This document shows, in pieces, positions 1,740 through 15,521 of a stretch of 29,233 bases of DNA (the first letter of the stretch is position 1; the number at the start of each line of letters is the position of its first letter). The DNA lies in IMG/VR virus record IMGVR_UViG_3300042465_005793, positions 1 through 29,233 of that record; one strand, given 5' to 3'. Source of the stretch: a virus. A program made the translations under genes and the position numbers. Under the pieces are notes generated by a model. That model made no database searches. It saw only the letters and a list, made by a program, of their open reading frames with translations, and was not told the DNA's origin.

Positions 1740-1856
1740 AGATTGTTAGATAGCATAAAAAATAAAAAATAAAAATTGTTTGCGGACCCTTCGTATTTTT
1801 ACAAGGAGATCCCAAGGCCGGCCCTCCCCGTCTACAATCCCATCAGCCTATATGTC

Positions 1857-1900
1857 AACGGTCAAGAGCCAGCATGAATGTCTACTTGCTCTTGACCGTT
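1857..1900. repeat. Perfect 13-bp inverted repeat between accessory gene and terminase operon
   Basis: The arms AACGGTCAAGAGC (1857-1869) and GCTCTTGACCGTT (1888-1900) are perfect reverse complements around an 18-base spacer. Read leftward, the repeat lies just past the stop of the 1910-2149 gene and upstream of the terminase genes. It lacks a T-tract, so it is not a classical terminator. The minus strand reads TTGACA across the end of the left arm, which could serve as a -35 box, though no good -10 follows at 16-18 bases. It may be a protein-binding operator or an RNA hairpin. Confidence 0.6.
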
Positions 1901-1909
1901 TACATTAGG

Positions 1910-2149: not shown

Positions 2150-2441
2150 TAGCGTGCCTTTCGAATTATAGGTCATATTGGCAGTTTTCGAGGGTAGATT
2201 TTAACCGCTCAGAATATTACACTTTCTGCTACGCTATACAATATAAAAACTCCCTAAGATTCTAATCTTTTTTAGACAATATAACCAACACCCCTCTAGA
2301 GCCCCGCGTTTTCAAGCCTTTGCGATAGGTCATCCACCTGACAATCCCGCGCCCAAAAAGACAATTTTTTGTAAAAGATTATTTGACAAGCGCTTCGAAT
2401 CGCACTATTGTCATATTGTCATCCAAACTGGAGTCGGGTAA
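2150..2441. promoter_or_regulatory. Divergent regulatory region with repeated TGACAAT motifs
   Basis: This 292-base stretch has no credible gene and is much richer in A and T than its surroundings. It separates the leftward gene at 1910-2149 from the rightward operon starting at 2442. The heptamer TGACAAT occurs at 2339-2345, and as ATTGTCA at 2407-2413 and 2415-2421. AGACAAT occurs at 2274-2280 and 2359-2365, and a further ATTGTCA lies at 1914-1920. The tandem pair falls on the -10 and start region of the rightward promoter, as expected of an operator. That function is inferred from motif spacing alone. Confidence 0.45.
2383..2411 (+). promoter_or_regulatory. Sigma70-like promoter for the rightward accessory operon
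   Basis: A perfect -35 hexamer TTGACA (2383-2388) is separated by 17 bases from the -10 hexamer TATTGT (2406-2411), which matches the consensus at four of six positions. Transcription would start near 2418, about 24 bases before the first gene at 2442. The -10 box overlaps a tandem TATTGTCA repeat (2406-2421), so a bound repressor could block polymerase. Confidence 0.6.
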
Positions 2442-4394: not shown

Positions 4395-4579
4395 AAGACT
4401 TGGCTCTCGACCTCTCTGAGATGAGTTATGGCGCCTTGCGCGCGATGTTAGACATGGGCGGCGGCCTGACGCCTTACGTGCAAGAGGAGCTTGATCGACG
4501 TGCTTTCGGTGAATCTATACCCGACGCCCCGCACGAAGGCGAAAGTAACCAACGACGCAGTGACGATAGAAACGCCTGA
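4391..4579 (+). CDS. Hypothetical 62-residue protein
   Basis: No family is recognised. The chosen ATG at 4391 overlaps the upstream stop as ATGA; a second in-frame ATG lies at 4382. The first 40 residues look helical (ALRAMLDMGG, YVQEELDRRAFGE). The last 20 are polar and disordered in appearance, and lie over the start of the next ORF in another frame. The ORF 4491-4751 overlaps it by 89 bases. Both may be real, but the tail of this one is the less convincing. Confidence 0.5.
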   Translation: MKDLALDLSEMSYGALRAMLDMGGGLTPYVQEELDRRAFGESIPDAPHEGESNQRRSDDRNA

Positions 4580-4751
4580 CGGGGCCGTCCGGCTTCACTT
4601 CCCGCACGCCGACGCCCGCGCCCTCGCGGCTGTCGCAAAAACCGTAAACTTCGCCTTAAGGTTCAAAGACCATGCAACTGATCAGTCTGCTAATCGTGGT
4701 GATTCTGGAAATCCTCATGGGGGTAAAGTAGATGGAATCAAACAGCCTTAA
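4491..4751 (+). CDS. Hypothetical 86-residue protein with TTG start
   Basis: No family is recognised. A TTG at 4491 follows the strong ribosome site AGAGGAGC almost directly. Codons for VTIETPDGAVRLHFPHADAR and the following helix (ALAAVAKTVNFALRF) look like a genuine small two-strand and helix fold. The last 25 codons overlap a hydrophobic micro-ORF at 4672 and the start of the gene at 4732. The exact start is uncertain, and a later start would remove most of the overlap with the upstream gene. Confidence 0.5.
   Translation: MIDVLSVNLYPTPRTKAKVTNDAVTIETPDGAVRLHFPHADARALAAVAKTVNFALRFKDHATDQSANRGDSGNPHGGKVDGIKQP
4672..4731 (+). CDS. Hydrophobic 19-residue micro-ORF
   Basis: The ATG at 4672 opens a 19-codon frame whose product is a single hydrophobic stretch (LISLLIVVILEILMGV). 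Its stop codon is immediately followed by the ATG of the gene at 4732 (TAGATG). It resembles the membrane peptide at 3034-3108 in size and character. Because it lies within another ORF and has only a weak ribosome site, it may be chance. Confidence 0.25.
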   Translation: MQLISLLIVVILEILMGVK

Positions 4752-7976: not shown

Positions 7977-8681
7977 TCACGCGGCTATGCGATATTCTTT
8001 GCGTTGATTTTTGATCCAGCTTTCGTCAGCATTAATGAAGCACGGCTGGATGAAGATCGGCTTGACCTCAGACAGGCCCTTGCCGACGCGCTGGTTGCGG
8101 ATGTGACCACGCCGCAGGTGCGGACGGACGGACGACTGTCCGTCGCCATCCCCGCGCTGCGTCTCGGTGATCTTGCCGATCTTTATGGTCGTGATGTAAT
8201 CATACTCACGCGGACGCTTACGGCTTTTTGGCCCGTACTTCTTGATCTTCTCTGTTGTTTTTTGAGCGTTTTTGGTGGCCAGTAACGCAAGCAGTGTGTG
8301 ATTTAGAAAACTGCTTATGTATTCAATTTCGCCGTGTAATTGAGCTGGATCAATGGAGTTATATTTGCAAATTTTTTCTATGTTTTGATGGTCAAGCCAA
8401 GATTCGTTGATTTTCAGCCGTGTTGTCAAATGATTGTTTTCTTTATCGTATTCATAGCGAAATGTGAATGTTCTTGTCGGTGCGTGGGCGCGCGTAATGA
8501 ACTTGTCCCACCCCGAAAACAATCGCGCCATAATTTTATGGTTAAGCGTAGCTTGAATGTCGAACACAGCATAAGGCGGTTGGTCTAGCCCGGCTTTTTC
8601 AAGAGCTGTGGCAGTGTCCAGAATAGTGTCGTAGTCTACGCTATCCCATATCTTTTCTTCTACCCTAAATAGATGTGTCAT
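7977..8681 (-). CDS. Conserved phage protein with C-terminal RPHxRRGHxR motif
   Basis: The start at 8681 overlaps the polymerase stop as ATGA and follows GAGAGG; the longer ORF start at 8738 would lie inside the polymerase gene. The 234-residue product is helical in its first 150 residues. It ends with RPHLRRGHIR followed by a Gly/Lys turn and a hydrophobic strand (VKPIFIQPCF). Proteins sharing an R-x-H-x-R-x-G-H signature are common in phages and mobile elements, but I know of no established activity. The reading frame is visibly richer in A and T, with more Lys, Asn and Ile codons than the flanking replication genes. This suggests separate acquisition. Confidence 0.6.
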   Translation of the reverse strand: MTHLFRVEEKIWDSVDYDTILDTATALEKAGLDQPPYAVFDIQATLNHKIMARLFSGWDKFITRAHAPTRTFTFRYEYDKENNHLTTRLKINESWLDHQNIEKICKYNSIDPAQLHGEIEYISSFLNHTLLALLATKNAQKTTEKIKKYGPKSRKRPREYDYITTIKIGKITETQRGDGDGQSSVRPHLRRGHIRNQRVGKGLSEVKPIFIQPCFINADESWIKNQRKEYRIAA

Positions 8682-10570
8682 TTCCCATACCTCTCCATAA
8701 TGCTGGCTTCTGCGTCCAGCGGTAACCCTGCCGCCCATGCCGGGGGCGTTGTCATAACCTTCTGCAATTCTTCGAGCGCCTCTTCAGGCCGATCAGTCTC
8801 AAGAACGATCTCGTCGTGAACATGCAGAACCACGTCATCAAGACGGCGCAGAGCCTCACGTAGAAGGTCATGGGCGGTCGCCTGTGTGACGTTCTCGCAG
8901 GCCAGACCCCGCCAGAGTCGGGCTCGGGGCCATTCTTTGGCGTCGGCTGCGGGCTTCCACGCCGCCTTGGCGTAGGTGATCGCATCGTCTTCAAACTTCG
9001 CGTAAGGGTAGCAAAGCACGCGGCCGGAAGGCAGAGCATACCAAAGATGCGTGCCATCATGAAGGTAAACTATCCGGCCGGCCTGAAACTGCTTGCCGGG
9101 GTTGCGCACCGCGCGCGTATAGGCCGACTCCAGTTCTTCCCAGAACGGCACGGCCCACTCGTTGGCGCGCCGCCATGCGTTGACCATGCGCCGGGCCTCG
9201 TCCTCGGGCAGAGACAGTCCGTAGACGCGGCCCATCGCGGCGAAGGCTCCAATGCCGCCGCCGAAGCCACAAGCCAATTCTTGCACCTTGCCGACCTGCC
9301 GCTGGTCCTTGGTGACGGCGTCATAGGTGGTCCTGAACGTCTCGGCGGCGTTGACCTTGTAGACGTCCAGTCCGTCCCGGAACTGTTGCAGCTTGGTGTT
9401 GTCGCCGCGGCCGGACAGCCACGGGTTGACGCGGCCCTCGATAGCGGACCAGTCAGCCACGACCAGCTTCTTGCCCTCGGCCGGGATCAGAGCGGGCCGC
9501 AGCATACCACGCAATACGTCTGTAACGCGCCGCCCAAATGCTGGCACGATGGCGTGGCTTCGCACCATTGCCTGTCGCACCCGTTCGGGCTCAGCGGCGC
9601 ACTTGCGCGTGAAATTGTGGACCTGGGCTCCGTAAGACGAAGCGCGCCCTGTAGCAGATCCGCCAGCAAATACGAAAGCGCCACGAACGCGAGCGTCGTC
9701 CCCAGCAAGATTCCACAGGCGGGCAAATTTCGCAACAGAAGACGCCCACAGGTCGTCAGCACACTGGATAACTTCTCTAACATCGGGGGGAACCTCCTCC
9801 GGGGCTTCAAACGCCAGCAAATTGGCGCGAACGGATTTGTCGATCGATTGCTTTCCGTCCTTGTCCATGAGCTTCAGCGCCTGCGGGCCAAGCCTCGCGG
9901 CGACCCACTCACGCATACGCGGGCTTCTCACCGACTGAATCTGACCACCTGTGATCTCGCGAACGGTGTCCTGTATCTCCTGAAGCTCTTTATCCGCGTA
10001 ACCGACCGCCGCGCGGCATAGATCGACGTCAACGCGAACGCCACGATCATTGATGCGCTCGTTAACATGGTAGTCCTCCAGCTCTTCCTCGGTCAGTTCG
10101 CGCATGGACTTGCTGACGGCCCGCATGGTTCGGACGTCCTGCGCGCAATATTCGAACAGTTCGGGCAGAAGATCTTCTCTAAAAGGAGGGACGCAACACT
10201 GACGCACAAGATAAGCGCCGCGATGGTCCTTACGCATCGACGAGCCTGCGAACCGGCCAACATCTTCAAGGCTTCCCGGCGCACAGTTCGCACGCGCCTG
10301 CGCAGCGGTGCAGTAGAAGTTATTCAGGAACGGCATGTTCAGCACGTTCCAGAAGATCAGCCGCTCGAAGGCGGCGTTGTGCGCCCGGATCTGGTGTGAC
10401 AGAATATGCCGCGGGAACGGCTGGTCAGGCGTCCAGACCTGCACCTCGTCGTCATCGACAGCGTAGGCCATGCAAAGCACCCGCGTTGACGGATGCTTCG
10501 CATAGTTATAGACGCCGGCTGTTTTTAGATCGCACTCGGATGCGGTCTCGAAATCCAGCCAGACGGTCAA
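8678..10570 (-). CDS. Family A DNA polymerase with 3'-5' exonuclease domain
   Basis: This is the replicative polymerase of the phage. The 630-residue protein begins with a DEDD exonuclease: D6 and E8 in WLDFETA, HNAAFE (64-69) and YCAQD (141-145). The family A palm and fingers follow: motif A VVADWSAIEGR (370-380), the O-helix motif B RQVGKVQELACGFGGG (424-439) and motif C VLHVHDEIVLE (581-591). All predicted catalytic acids are present, and there is no 5'-3' exonuclease domain. The start is a TTG at 10570 overlapping the upstream stop as TTGA, with a weak ribosome site, so translation is probably coupled. The length fits compact phage PolA-type enzymes. Confidence 0.95.
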   Translation of the reverse strand: MTVWLDFETASECDLKTAGVYNYAKHPSTRVLCMAYAVDDDEVQVWTPDQPFPRHILSHQIRAHNAAFERLIFWNVLNMPFLNNFYCTAAQARANCAPGSLEDVGRFAGSSMRKDHRGAYLVRQCCVPPFREDLLPELFEYCAQDVRTMRAVSKSMRELTEEELEDYHVNERINDRGVRVDVDLCRAAVGYADKELQEIQDTVREITGGQIQSVRSPRMREWVAARLGPQALKLMDKDGKQSIDKSVRANLLAFEAPEEVPPDVREVIQCADDLWASSVAKFARLWNLAGDDARVRGAFVFAGGSATGRASSYGAQVHNFTRKCAAEPERVRQAMVRSHAIVPAFGRRVTDVLRGMLRPALIPAEGKKLVVADWSAIEGRVNPWLSGRGDNTKLQQFRDGLDVYKVNAAETFRTTYDAVTKDQRQVGKVQELACGFGGGIGAFAAMGRVYGLSLPEDEARRMVNAWRRANEWAVPFWEELESAYTRAVRNPGKQFQAGRIVYLHDGTHLWYALPSGRVLCYPYAKFEDDAITYAKAAWKPAADAKEWPRARLWRGLACENVTQATAHDLLREALRRLDDVVLHVHDEIVLETDRPEEALEELQKVMTTPPAWAAGLPLDAEASIMERYGK

Positions 10571-10824
10571 TTTAATTCACTCATTTTTACGAATGGTAAC
10601 CCATCATGTCCCTTCGCCTTTATCATATCTATAAACTCATGCAGATCCGATATAGAATCTTCGTGAATTTTAAGAACGCTCATATAGACGCCCAGCGCGT
10701 GCGCCAAGGCATATACTATATCTCTACGAAGGGTAGGATCACCTTTGTGTTTTACTACATGGTCACTACATGCGATCATCAACTCTTTAGTTAATTCAAG
10801 TTGACGGTTCATTTGAGGGTCCAT
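10567..10824 (-). CDS. Hypothetical 85-residue helical protein
   Basis: No family is recognised. The ATG at 10824 follows AAGGA by eight bases. The product is almost entirely helical (QLELTKELMIACSDHVVKH, IVYALAHALGVYMSVLKIH, DLHEFIDMIKAKG). Its stop overlaps the TTG start of the polymerase, so its translation may set polymerase levels. Its place between the regulator at 10838 and the polymerase suggests a replication accessory role. That is inference from position only. Confidence 0.65.
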   Translation of the reverse strand: MDPQMNRQLELTKELMIACSDHVVKHKGDPTLRRDIVYALAHALGVYMSVLKIHEDSISDLHEFIDMIKAKGHDGLPFVKMSELN

Positions 10825-10837
10825 AGTTTATTTCCTT

Positions 10838-11218
10838 CTACTGACTTTTGGCCTTGATGCTGCGCATGTAACGACCGACTGTGCTTTCTTGCAGGTTCAG
10901 ATGCACCGCGATCCGCGCGCGGCCGTAGCCCATTCGCATAAGAGCCAGTATGTCTCTCTCGCGAGGTGACAAGGCGCCCGTCTGCGACTTCAGCGGCACC
11001 GGCTCTGTCCGGTAGAGGTGCAGCACGGTCGTGTGGTCGCGGTTAATAGCGCGGCCGATCACAGGATAGGATATCTTCAGTTCACGCCGCGCGCGTTTAA
11101 CGAACTCTCGCCGCGCCTCAACGATCAGACGCTCGCCGGCACGACCGACGACGTCCTCCAGCGGCACACAGCGCGTTTTGCACACGTCCGCAAGCAATGA
11201 TTTTAGTGAAGCTCGCAT
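10838..11218 (-). CDS. DnaA domain IV-like and LuxR-type HTH fusion protein
   Basis: The 126-residue protein joins two DNA-binding domains. Residues 5-70 resemble domain IV of the replication initiator DnaA: VPLEDVVGR, then an Ala/Arg-rich helix, and YPVIGRAINRDHTTVLH, which matches the DnaA signature ending in RDHTTV. Residues 82-122 resemble a LuxR/GerE-type HTH (LSPRERDILALMRMGYGRAR, STVGRYMRSIKAK). DnaA's ATPase domain is absent. It could bind DnaA-box-like sites in phage or host DNA, either to start replication, divert DnaA or regulate the operon. The start has a strong GGGAGGAAG site. Placement is between the early protein at 11263 and the polymerase. Confidence 0.75.
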   Translation of the reverse strand: MRASLKSLLADVCKTRCVPLEDVVGRAGERLIVEARREFVKRARRELKISYPVIGRAINRDHTTVLHLYRTEPVPLKSQTGALSPRERDILALMRMGYGRARIAVHLNLQESTVGRYMRSIKAKSQ

Positions 11219-11240
11219 TTCTTCCTCCCGAGAAGAAGAT

Positions 11241-11256
11241 GGGGGCCGAAGCCCCC
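11241..11256 (-). other. C(UUCG)G hairpin between replication genes
   Basis: On the minus strand GGGGGC-TTCG-GCCCCC forms a six-bp stem closed by the unusually stable UUCG tetraloop. It starts seven bases after the stop of the gene at 11263 and precedes the ribosome site of the gene at 11218. The following ATCTTCTTCT is only moderately T-rich, so it may attenuate transcription or protect upstream mRNA from decay. Confidence 0.6.
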
Positions 11257-11262
11257 ACCTGT

Positions 11263-11889
11263 TTAGCCACGACGACGACGGACGGGCTCTTCTGTAGACG
11301 GAGACGCATCACCTTCACCGTCCAGAGAGATCCAGTCCTGCACGTTGAACACGGGCGTATAGACGCGCCCGTAGCTCTTGTGCTGGTAGTGGTCGTTGGC
11401 CAACTTCACAAGCGCGACGGGGTGCGCCTGATCCTTCTCGATCTGCTCAGCGACATCCATAGCCAATGAGTGCATGGCCTTCTTACCGCCGACAGACGTC
11501 ACCGTGTAGCGCGCCTCGACGCCCTTATCCTCGCCGTGGACGCACTTCACGCTCATGCCGACCTGAGACTCCCAGCCACGCTTGGCCTGCGGAGGCGCCG
11601 GCTCCAGCTCCGGCAGCGGCTCGGTGATCGGCACCATCTTCTCGGACAGCACCTCGCCCTCGCCCCACGCGATATAGCCATGCGTGAACGAGAACGGGTT
11701 GACCGCCCACAGACCCTCGCGGTCGATCTCCGTCTGATCGGCGCCGTAGACCCAGTGGCCGGTCTTGTCCATCTTGATGATGACCTGACCGTCTGTGCCA
11801 GCGACGGCTTCCGTATTCCGTCGCAGGGCAGCCGCAAGATCCGTAGCGGCGGGAAGGTTGGCGTTACCGAACTTTACGATATTGGACAT
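11263..11889 (-). CDS. Conserved phage early protein of the replication module
   Basis: The 208-residue product starts MSNIVKFGNANLPAATDLAA. A beta-rich region then contains IKMDKTGHWVYGADQTEI and LWAVNPFSFTHGYIAWGEG, a pattern I associate with phage proteins encoded next to DUF2800 nucleases. A proline-rich linker (about residues 92-101) precedes a second conserved region. The end is an acidic patch and an arginine run (EEPVRRRRG). I cannot name its activity. A single-stranded DNA-binding or recombination role would fit the position but is unproven. The 375-codon nuclease gene ends two bases upstream, so the two are probably co-expressed. Confidence 0.65.
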   Translation of the reverse strand: MSNIVKFGNANLPAATDLAAALRRNTEAVAGTDGQVIIKMDKTGHWVYGADQTEIDREGLWAVNPFSFTHGYIAWGEGEVLSEKMVPITEPLPELEPAPPQAKRGWESQVGMSVKCVHGEDKGVEARYTVTSVGGKKAMHSLAMDVAEQIEKDQAHPVALVKLANDHYQHKSYGRVYTPVFNVQDWISLDGEGDASPSTEEPVRRRRG

Positions 11890-11890
11890 G

Positions 11891-12982
11891 CTATTTTACC
11901 TCTAGTTTAGAGAAGGCCCGACGAATGTCGGAGCCTATGGTCAGAACCGCAGGACGCGGGTCTGATTCGGGAGCCAGCGTATTACCGGACGAGACCGCAA
12001 CGATCAGTCCTTCTGGCATTGTGACCTTGTGCTTCTTCAGCACCTTCTCGACCTGCGCCGGAGAGCGCATCTCGATCAATTCTTCCGCCGGCACAAGCCC
12101 CTCAAAGGCTTCCAGCGCTTTCAGCTCGTTGACCCACTGGCGCGTTGCGCGCTTCGGAACCAGCTTGTAGCCCGGCACAGCCGCGCCCTTCTGCAACAGA
12201 TCCTGCGCCAGTTCGCGCACGTCCTTGATCCAGCCCTCCAGCTTGTCGGCCACGACCAGCGCGTCGGCCAGTTGCTGGGCGTCCAGCGCCTTGACCTTGG
12301 CGGCCAGCGCCCGGTCCACCTCGCCGCTGAGCGCCGGGCAGATCGGCTTGGCTGCACAGAAGCGGCAATGCGAGCCGTGATTGATCGGCGCGTCAGGACG
12401 AAAGGAAAGCTCGACAGCCTTAACCAGCTCGCGCTCGAAGGCAACGATCCGGCCGGGCGTCGTCACCCAGCGCCGGATGAAGGGCGGCTGGACGATGATG
12501 ATCTCTATTTCGGTAACGCCCTGAAAGACCCATCGCAGCTCGGGCGTGCGCATACCGGCGGCGGTATAGAACATGCCTTGCTCGTTTTCCTCGGCCTCGA
12601 CCTGCACGCCGTCGCCGAACTTCCAATCCAGCATGACTGCGCGATTGCGTATGCGCCCAGCGAGATCGCAACTACCAAAAACTCCGGCAAGAAAACCTCC
12701 AAAATGAACGCGCGTCTCGGTAACGAACTCCATCTCTCTGTTGGGGTCGATTTCTTCGAGGGCGGCGAGCGCGAACCGGATCTTGTCTTCCTGCGCCTCG
12801 GTGAGGTCTTCAGGAAACGGTTCGCCGGACAGGACACGGTGCATGACGTCATGCAGCATCGTGCCTTCTTCAGCGTAGCGGCCTGCGGGCCGCGGCGGAA
12901 CCTTGTCTATAAGCTGGCGGCTGCCGGGGCAAGCCATAAGGCGCTTGGCGGACGAGCCGCCGACAATCGTGCTGTGTGCCAT
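11891..12982 (-). CDS. DUF2800 family PD-(D/E)XK nuclease, Cas4/AddB-like
   Basis: Predicted recombination or replication exonuclease. With the start at 12982 (AAAGG seven bases upstream) it has 363 residues. The nuclease core is visible as EGTMLH (39-44), D106 in FGSCD and DWK (119-121), the expected PD-(D/E)XK acidic and lysine residues. Four cysteines, C18 and then C206, C209 and C215 (CRFCAAKPIC), match the split cysteine layout of Cas4 and AddB nucleases that hold a 4Fe-4S cluster. The C-terminal half is helical. Such genes usually accompany phage PolA, VRR-NUC and SNF2 genes, as here. It is the first gene of the leftward replication operon. Confidence 0.85.
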   Translation of the reverse strand: MAHSTIVGGSSAKRLMACPGSRQLIDKVPPRPAGRYAEEGTMLHDVMHRVLSGEPFPEDLTEAQEDKIRFALAALEEIDPNREMEFVTETRVHFGGFLAGVFGSCDLAGRIRNRAVMLDWKFGDGVQVEAEENEQGMFYTAAGMRTPELRWVFQGVTEIEIIIVQPPFIRRWVTTPGRIVAFERELVKAVELSFRPDAPINHGSHCRFCAAKPICPALSGEVDRALAAKVKALDAQQLADALVVADKLEGWIKDVRELAQDLLQKGAAVPGYKLVPKRATRQWVNELKALEAFEGLVPAEELIEMRSPAQVEKVLKKHKVTMPEGLIVAVSSGNTLAPESDPRPAVLTIGSDIRRAFSKLEVK

Positions 12983-13044
12983 TACCATACCTTTCTTGTG
13001 AGACGGACCTTGACACATTCATGAATTTTATGCAAGTCGTATTT

Positions 13045-14742: not shown

Positions 14743-14971
14743 GGATCGTAACGCGACGCACGGCGACTTTGCCGACCATGCGCGCGCGACGCAAATGCTG
14801 AAGACGGTGATCCAGAATCAACCAGGCTGGAAGAACCTGAACGCCATGCAGCGCGAGTCGCTGGACATGATCGCCCACAAAATGGGGCGCATACTGGCCG
14901 GCAACCCGAGCCACGCCGACCACTGGCACGACATCCAAGGCTACGCCAAGCTGATAGAGGACCGGCTGTGA
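14720..14971 (+). CDS. DUF6378-like conserved phage protein
   Basis: The start is a GTG at 14720, nine bases after GGAGG; the ORF can be extended in frame to 14681, but the added residues are out-of-frame shadow of the previous gene. The 83-residue product has the family pattern: THGDFADHA near the N-terminus, then LDMIAHKMGRILAGNPSHAD and HWHDIQGYAKL. I associate this with DUF6378, a domain common in phages and sometimes likened to small MazG-like all-helical folds. No activity is established. The next gene starts at the overlapping GTGA. Confidence 0.75.
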   Translation: MSVQQTLEDRNATHGDFADHARATQMLKTVIQNQPGWKNLNAMQRESLDMIAHKMGRILAGNPSHADHWHDIQGYAKLIEDRL

Positions 14972-15333
14972 ACAGAGTCAGCAAATACATCCATGTCCGC
15001 AGCGGCATCTCCTGCGGCCCCGGCGACGGGCGCCGTGTGCTGCTATCGTTACCGCGTGTGGAGTGGCTGGAGCGGCAGCCGGACTACGTGCCGTGGCCAC
15101 CGCTCAAAGAGCCGGAGCCGGAACCTGTGCCGGACTTCCAGCCGACGCGCTATGACTTCCGTCCGCAGTTGCGCAGCAACGAACTGTCCAATCGTCAGCG
15201 GCAAGCGTGGAATCTGCATCTCGCCGGGCTGTCTATGAAACAGATCGGGGAGAAGATGGATTGCACGGATAATGCAGCCAGCAAGCTGGTGTCGCAGGCG
15301 CGCGAGAAGTTGGGGATCGGGCTAGAGAAATGA
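14968..15333 (+). CDS. HTH protein (LuxR/sigma70 region 4-like), longer paralog
   Basis: A 121-residue product starting at GTG in a GTGA overlap. The first 70 residues are proline- and acid-rich (PPLKEPEPEPVPDF). The C-terminal 48 form a helix-turn-helix of the sigma70 region 4/LuxR type (LSNRQRQAWNLHLAGLSMKQ, NAASKLVSQAREKLGI). It probably binds DNA and may regulate phage promoters. The next gene encodes a shorter protein with the same kind of HTH, so the pair may have arisen by duplication. Confidence 0.75.
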   Translation: MNRVSKYIHVRSGISCGPGDGRRVLLSLPRVEWLERQPDYVPWPPLKEPEPEPVPDFQPTRYDFRPQLRSNELSNRQRQAWNLHLAGLSMKQIGEKMDCTDNAASKLVSQAREKLGIGLEK

Positions 15334-15521
15334 GCAGTAAAGGCGTCGGCAAAGCCGGTCAGCACAACGTCTTCATCCTGACCGACCGCGAGAAGCAGGT
15401 CTGGGAGATGCGCAAGACGAAAAGCACAAAGGAAGTCGCCGCGATCATCGGCACGTCAGAGGCGAACGTCCGCAAGCTGTTCGAAAACGCGCGGGACAAG
15501 ATAGGAGCGGGGGGTGACTGA
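15330..15521 (+). CDS. HTH protein (LuxR/sigma70 region 4-like), shorter paralog
   Basis: The 63-residue protein is almost only a helix-turn-helix: LTDREKQVWEMRKTKSTKEV, then a recognition-helix region (TSEANVRKLFENARDKIG). It aligns by eye with the C-terminus of the preceding gene product (LSNRQRQAW against LTDREKQVW, and KLVSQAREKLG against KLFENARDKIG). The start overlaps the upstream stop as ATGA. A DNA-binding regulatory role is likely; its target is unknown. Confidence 0.75.
   Translation: MSSKGVGKAGQHNVFILTDREKQVWEMRKTKSTKEVAAIIGTSEANVRKLFENARDKIGAGGD

Follow-up and report, generated by a model that had tools for sequence, protein, structure and literature searches.

A podovirus protein joining DnaA domain IV to a sigma-4/GerE-type helix-turn-helix, and its possible role as a GafA-like transcription switch

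A 126-residue protein with two DNA-binding domains in the replication operon

The window, that is, the whole 29,233-nucleotide stretch of viral DNA analysed here (IMG/VR record IMGVR_UViG_3300042465_005793), carries a minus-strand operon in the order exonuclease, SSB-like gene, 126-residue gene, 85-residue ORF, family A polymerase, unknown gene and primase-helicase, the last of which contains RepB-primase and DUF5906 domains. The features around the 126-residue gene are as follows.

11891..13018, minus strand: DUF2800/PD-(D/E)XK exonuclease, first gene of the operon (profile matches)
11263..11889, minus strand: SSB-like upstream neighbour (PHROG 9528, "nucleotidyltransferase")
11237..11260, minus strand: stable hairpin whose loop is UUCG, separating the SSB-like gene from the 126-residue gene
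10838..11218, minus strand: protein with DnaA domain IV and a GerE/sigma-4-type HTH, 126 residues (Pfam, AlphaFold2, structure matches)
11009..11194, minus strand: DnaA domain IV (Bac_DnaA_C) part of this ORF (Pfam match, 37.5 bits)
10847..10972, minus strand: GerE/LuxR-type HTH part of this ORF, residues 83-124 (Pfam; fold matches)
10567-10824, minus strand: 85-residue ORF between the 126-residue gene and polA, without family match
8678..10570, minus strand: family A DNA polymerase (polA), downstream neighbour (profile matches)

The 126-residue ORF runs on the minus strand from an ATG at 11218 to a stop codon ending at 10838. A sequence-only reading had claimed that it joins DnaA domain IV to a LuxR/GerE-type HTH, and both domains were recovered by Pfam above their curated gathering cut-offs. 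Residues 9-70 matched Bac_DnaA_C (PF08299) with an E value of 4.3e-9 and 36.7 bits against a cut-off of 31.5, and residues 83-124 matched GerE (PF00196) with an E value of 8.8e-8 and 32.1 bits against a cut-off of 23.5. NCBIfam and PDB sequence searches concurred with this assignment. By profile, the protein belongs to both Bac_DnaA_C and GerE. In PHROGs, the protein itself gave no match to phrog_27829 and a weak one to phrog_3855 (4e-4). The DnaA-box-reading signature GRAINRDHTTVLH is present and the ATPase domain gone, as had also been claimed: Pfam found no match to an AAA+ ATPase domain in the 126 residues, which leave no room for one. The protein thus carries neither the AAA+ ATPase domain nor the domain I that are features of DnaA; it is not a DnaA initiator.

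The AlphaFold2 model (19-row alignment, mean pLDDT 84.6, pTM 0.62) places helices at 5-16, 20-24, 30-46, 51-57 and 62-70 in the DnaA-IV half and at 85-95, 100-106 and 111-125 in the HTH half, joined by a short linker of ~12 residues that is weakly defined about 71-83 (mean pLDDT 60 for block 71-80). A profile match and two separable HTH domains had been set beforehand as the test of the two-domain claim, and both were found. When the model was searched against solved structures with Foldseek and VIA-align, the nearest fold of residues about 1-79 was DnaA domain IV (1j1v, Z 11.2 over residues 3-78; 3pvp, Z 11.6). Residues about 78-126 matched the NarL/LuxR, DosR, LiaR and sigma-4 domains with Z about 8-9 over ~47 residues, most at an rmsd below about 2 Å (1je8, Z 8.7, rmsd 1.5 Å).

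The assignment of the second HTH to the LuxR/GerE type held as far as the profile cut-off goes, but it needs a qualification. The GerE profile is covered at positions 3-44 of 57, and the chain stops directly after the recognition helix, so that the model shows three helices there. The protein therefore shares a tri-helical HTH with the LuxR/GerE-type regulators NarL, DosR and LiaR and with sigma-70 region 4, and differs from the former in lacking the fourth, C-terminal (dimerisation) GerE helix. Taken on sequence and model, the protein is best described as a putative podovirus regulator that would bind specific DNA sequences with a minimal set of two domains, a DnaA-IV fold and a sigma-4/GerE-type HTH, and without an ATPase. 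We regard its anatomy as solid and the case for its mechanism as moderate.

The gene had been placed just before the polymerase. Its link to the replication operon stands, although in the window the 85-residue ORF lies between the two genes. This ORF is missing at that place in two relatives (G002 and G004), in which the 126-residue gene adjoins polA, and in a close relative (L003) the fused gene adjoins polA directly, with overlapping codons. The upstream neighbour is named "SSB-like" for where it sits in the DUF2800/PolA cassette; nucleotidyltransferase is the name of the family in PHROGs.

Fused, split and duplicated states in one podovirus clade

Six close copies of the protein, 89-100% identical, were found in IMG/VR. 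The wider scans yielded 80 loci, and the candidate loci that encode a relative number at least 148. Stand-alone DnaA-IV proteins of phages had been called little described, which was half right: phrog_27829 bears the name "DnaA-like replication initiation protein", several GenBank phages annotate one and the candidate loci are numerous. A literature search found no direct study of their function. These stand-alone proteins resemble the window protein in having DnaA domain IV without the ATPase and differ from it in having no second HTH.

The neighbourhoods of the relatives show one podovirus clade with three states. In group A (the window and G001-G004), the 126-residue fusion occupies the slot that separates polA from the SSB-like gene. 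This slot holds, in group B (G005-G007; loci L027-L032), a fusion of 228-234 residues with an N-terminal extension. The neighbours of the group B gene are mostly 62-77% identical to those in the window, whereas the fused protein is only about 30% identical. The A and B fusions have 32 invariant residues in common, spread over both domains, and the group B model, of moderate quality (pLDDT 68), has the same helix order as the window protein. Group C has no fused copy. There, a lone sigma-r4/GerE HTH of 59 residues (Sigma70_r4_2, 5.6e-8) fills the slot in five genomes (G011, G013, G014, G016 and MW202483), and a single-domain DnaA-IV gene sits between terS and the primase-helicase, overlapping an upstream GerE-like HTH gene in four of them (G011, G013, G014 and G016). 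In G009 and G010 the single-domain gene is present, and the slot showed no matching HTH. The two-HTH form had been thought unusual; the fused form is indeed the rarer one, but it is present in two lineages of the clade.

Fusion and single-domain copy occur together in G003 of group A and in G005 and G007 of group B. The window and G004 have no single-domain DnaA-IV gene and retain only the fused copy; in the window, the usual upstream neighbour of the single-domain gene remains at 4491-4751. A terminator-like hairpin follows the SSB-like gene at the same place in groups A, B and C, with a UUCG loop in A, and its stem in G004 shows a compensatory change from GGGGC/GCCCC to GGCGC/GCGCC.

In a tree, the fused DnaA-IV domain fell among the single-domain proteins of phages, apart from bacterial DnaA. 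The idea that the fusion was copied recently from the single-domain gene of the clade itself was unsupported, the single-domain copies clustering apart; the DnaA-IV domain nearest to group A came from another phage (L026, 51% identity). A single origin of the A and B fusions was compatible with the data (AU p 0.70, the constrained tree scoring higher), on 61 alignment columns only.

Two other phage DnaA-IV proteins (L036:3929-4600 and L066:22-600) have long C-terminal tails. The L036 tail gave a weak HTH_28 match (E 0.0017), from which we consider that the combination of DnaA-IV with an HTH may have more than one origin.

DNA-reading residues, DnaA boxes and candidate-origin repeats

The major-groove residues D433, H434 and T435 of DnaA are retained in the 126-residue protein as RDHTT. 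This helix is the same throughout our common alignment, a constancy that is partly built in, since RDHTT served as the search pattern. Arg407 is invariant in the same alignment. The position equivalent to Arg399, the minor-groove contact of E. coli DnaA, behaves differently: the group A fused proteins all have Gly there and the group B fusions Q, Q and R, whereas R/K is found in 57/59 phage proteins of the single-domain kind, in 8/8 of those in the clade and in 25/25 bacterial DnaA proteins. Arg399 is a feature of DnaA-box binding and is not demanded by the Pfam family PF08299. Because this minor-groove contact is lost, the fused A proteins probably do not read the standard DnaA box. In GafA, the minor-groove Arg position of DnaA is Glu (PMC9638019).

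DnaA boxes of the form TTWTNCACA (at most one mismatch) numbered 20 in the window, with 22 expected, and the relatives had exact boxes at close to the chance rate. Slight excesses over the maximum of 30 simulated sequences were confined to G013 and the larger MW202483 piece, with scattered sites. One exact box, at 11176-11184, falls inside the 126-residue ORF itself and has no counterpart there in G002-G004.

The window also carries iteron-like repeats of the TATTGTCATATTGTCA type at 2150-2441, which are dissimilar to DnaA boxes. A cluster of this kind lies between terS and the early genes in most members examined, often around an AT-rich stretch, and its sequence varies by lineage (window 2150-2441; equivalent regions in L129-L152). 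The repeats of G005 bear no relation to those of G007. Between these two phages, however, the fused proteins share 90% and the single DnaA-IV proteins 93% identity, and the primase-helicases are 90-98% identical over the N-terminal 300 residues and 48-68% over most of the rest. G009 and G013 have TTGGG-type repeats in common, with helicases 75% and DnaA-IV proteins only 45% identical; G011 and G013 differ in their repeats, with helicases 52% and DnaA-IV proteins 74% identical. These few pairs are suggestive of repeats that are tracked by the C-terminal part of the primase-helicase and not by the DnaA-IV proteins. Given this, the repeat region at 2150-2441 and its equivalents may be a P4-alpha-like replication origin, for which the primase-helicase, with its RepB-primase and DUF5906 domains, is the better candidate reader. 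We consider these repeats an unlikely target of the 126-residue protein, as near-identical fused proteins of group B face unrelated repeats. The earlier suggestion that it loads the replisome at DnaA-box-like sites was not supported: boxes were near chance, and the 2150-2441 repeats are unlike boxes and do not co-vary with the protein.

A conserved element upstream of terS

A different element was found upstream of terS.

1852..1906, no strand assigned: 12-bp inverted repeat with three ATGTMWAC-type elements about it, lying upstream of terS (putative site for a regulator of the DnaA-IV type)

ATGTMWAC occurred at 27 sites in 11/12 regions of 260 bp upstream of terS and at 46 sites in the remaining 311 kb, with a mean of 0.35 and a maximum of 4 in 1000 shuffles. 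The motif had first been picked by eye in these same regions; an unguided 7-mer list put TGTAAAC first, in 11/12 regions. The ATGTMWAC/GTTTACAT elements are conserved upstream of terS in nearly all relatives. The 126-residue protein is a candidate reader of the element, as are TerS, a host factor and, in G003, G005 and G007, the second, single-domain DnaA-IV protein.

Likeness to GafA and a possible role in late transcription

The nearest parallel among characterised systems is GafA of the Rhodobacter capsulatus gene transfer agent. It has a DnaA-DBD-like N-terminus and a sigma-like C-terminus, and activates the terminase-first structural operon from a binding site 76-125 bp ahead of its first structural gene (PMC6363796, PMC9638019). 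In Caulobacter crescentus, GafA is split into GafY, a DnaA domain IV homologue, and GafZ, a sigma-like HTH protein, acting in anti-termination (PMC9632790, PMC11150451). GafY/HdaB was first taken for a replication regulator and afterwards reassigned to transcription (PMC9632790).

The window protein joins an N-terminal DnaA-like DBD and a C-terminal sigma/GerE-like HTH in one chain, as GafA does, and in neither protein is the Arg399 position an Arg. In contrast, GafA is a 42-kDa protein with a central region that binds RNAP-omega, whereas the window protein has 126 residues and only its ~12-residue linker. A phage homologue of GafA, RDJL Phi 1 gp38, carries DUF6456 (PF20057); this domain was not found in the window protein or in four clade genomes, in a search whose Caulobacter positive control was found, and gp38 gave no BLAST or hhalign match to the window protein. 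Membership of the GafA family was ruled out on these two grounds. The operon of GafY and GafZ, a DnaA-IV protein with a sigma-like HTH, is mirrored by the overlapping genes in part of group C, although there the order is reversed (HTH first) and DUF6456 is lacking.

A regulatory role is the one favoured by our analysis, and the comparison with GafA points to activation rather than repression. Since the clade repeats the fused (GafA) and split (GafY plus GafZ) pattern, we tentatively propose, at somewhat less than an even chance, that the protein is a GafA-like two-domain switch that turns on phage transcription. Of its two domains, the DnaA-type one would bind an element in the upstream part of the promoter, and the other, the sigma-4-like HTH, would bind near the core promoter or contact RNA polymerase. 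What is switched on would most plausibly be the terS-first late operon with its upstream ATGTMWAC/GTTTACAT elements and, the protein being made from the early replication operon, replication would be coupled to late expression. We counted in favour of the switch that both domains are above their cut-offs in a separable fold, that the fusion is conserved in two lineages, that Arg399 is lost and DnaA boxes are not enriched, and that ATGTMWAC is in excess upstream of terS. Weighing against it are the lack of homology to gp38, of DUF6456 and of any counterpart of the central RNAP-binding region of GafA, the place of the gene in a replication operon, which suits a replication role too, and an ATGTMWAC element that is a candidate not tied to the 126-residue protein. 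A more specific reading is rather doubtful: DnaA domain IV would have been repurposed, independently of GafA and DUF6456, as the promoter-reading half of a small podovirus activator acting on the terS operon via the GTTTACAT-type element, with the clade preserving both split and fused states and GafA/GafYZ forming one branch of a wider phage design.

Phage genes receive the label "DnaA-like replication initiator" on domain IV alone. The clade offers a compact, testable case in which DnaA-IV is probably a transcription module, with fused, split and duplicated copies beside conserved candidate sites. If the proposed switch is real, a common annotation would be corrected, the coupling of replication to late transcription in a podovirus would be explained, and the GafA/GafYZ regulators of gene transfer agents would gain a phage context.

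Alternative roles

The protein might instead be a replication initiator or an origin-binding accessory whose two HTHs bind a bipartite phage origin and recruit PolA or the primase-helicase, as a small Rep protein does at iterons. Its location in the operon of groups A and B, with the SSB-like gene on one side and polA on the other, the DnaA-type reading residues that it retains and the candidate origin at about 2150-2441, with repeats around an AT-rich core, would suit such a role. We nevertheless think it unlikely: DnaA boxes are not enriched, the repeats do not co-vary with fused or single DnaA-IV proteins (G005 versus G007) and have a better candidate reader in the primase-helicase, and the group C phages lack any fused copy.

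An equally improbable role is that of a local repressor or autoregulator, which would bind the promoter of its own operon to control how strongly the replication genes are expressed and would not act as an activator. Small HTH proteins are typically autoregulators, a lone sigma-4/GerE HTH occupies the slot in group C, and a hairpin or terminator precedes the slot gene in all groups. Against this, no inverted repeat was found at the exo/VRR-NUC divergent promoter of the window, and the lone slot HTH resembles sigma region 4, a fold that serves in repression less often than in contacts to polymerase and the -35 region.

Very unlikely is an anti-host factor that occupies host DnaA boxes (oriC and DnaA-regulated promoters) and blocks or mistimes host replication: the RDHTT reading helix is retained and the near absence of boxes from the phage would leave them mainly in the host, but the loss of the Arg399-equivalent in the A fusions predicts weaker affinity for the DnaA box, and Caulobacter GafY/HdaB has moved from a replication to a transcription role (PMC9632790).

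Apart from the operon, the window encodes two more small proteins with a sigma-70 region 4/GerE-type HTH, at 14968-15333 and 15330-15521 on the plus strand after an SNF2 helicase, which brings the domains of this type in the phage to three.
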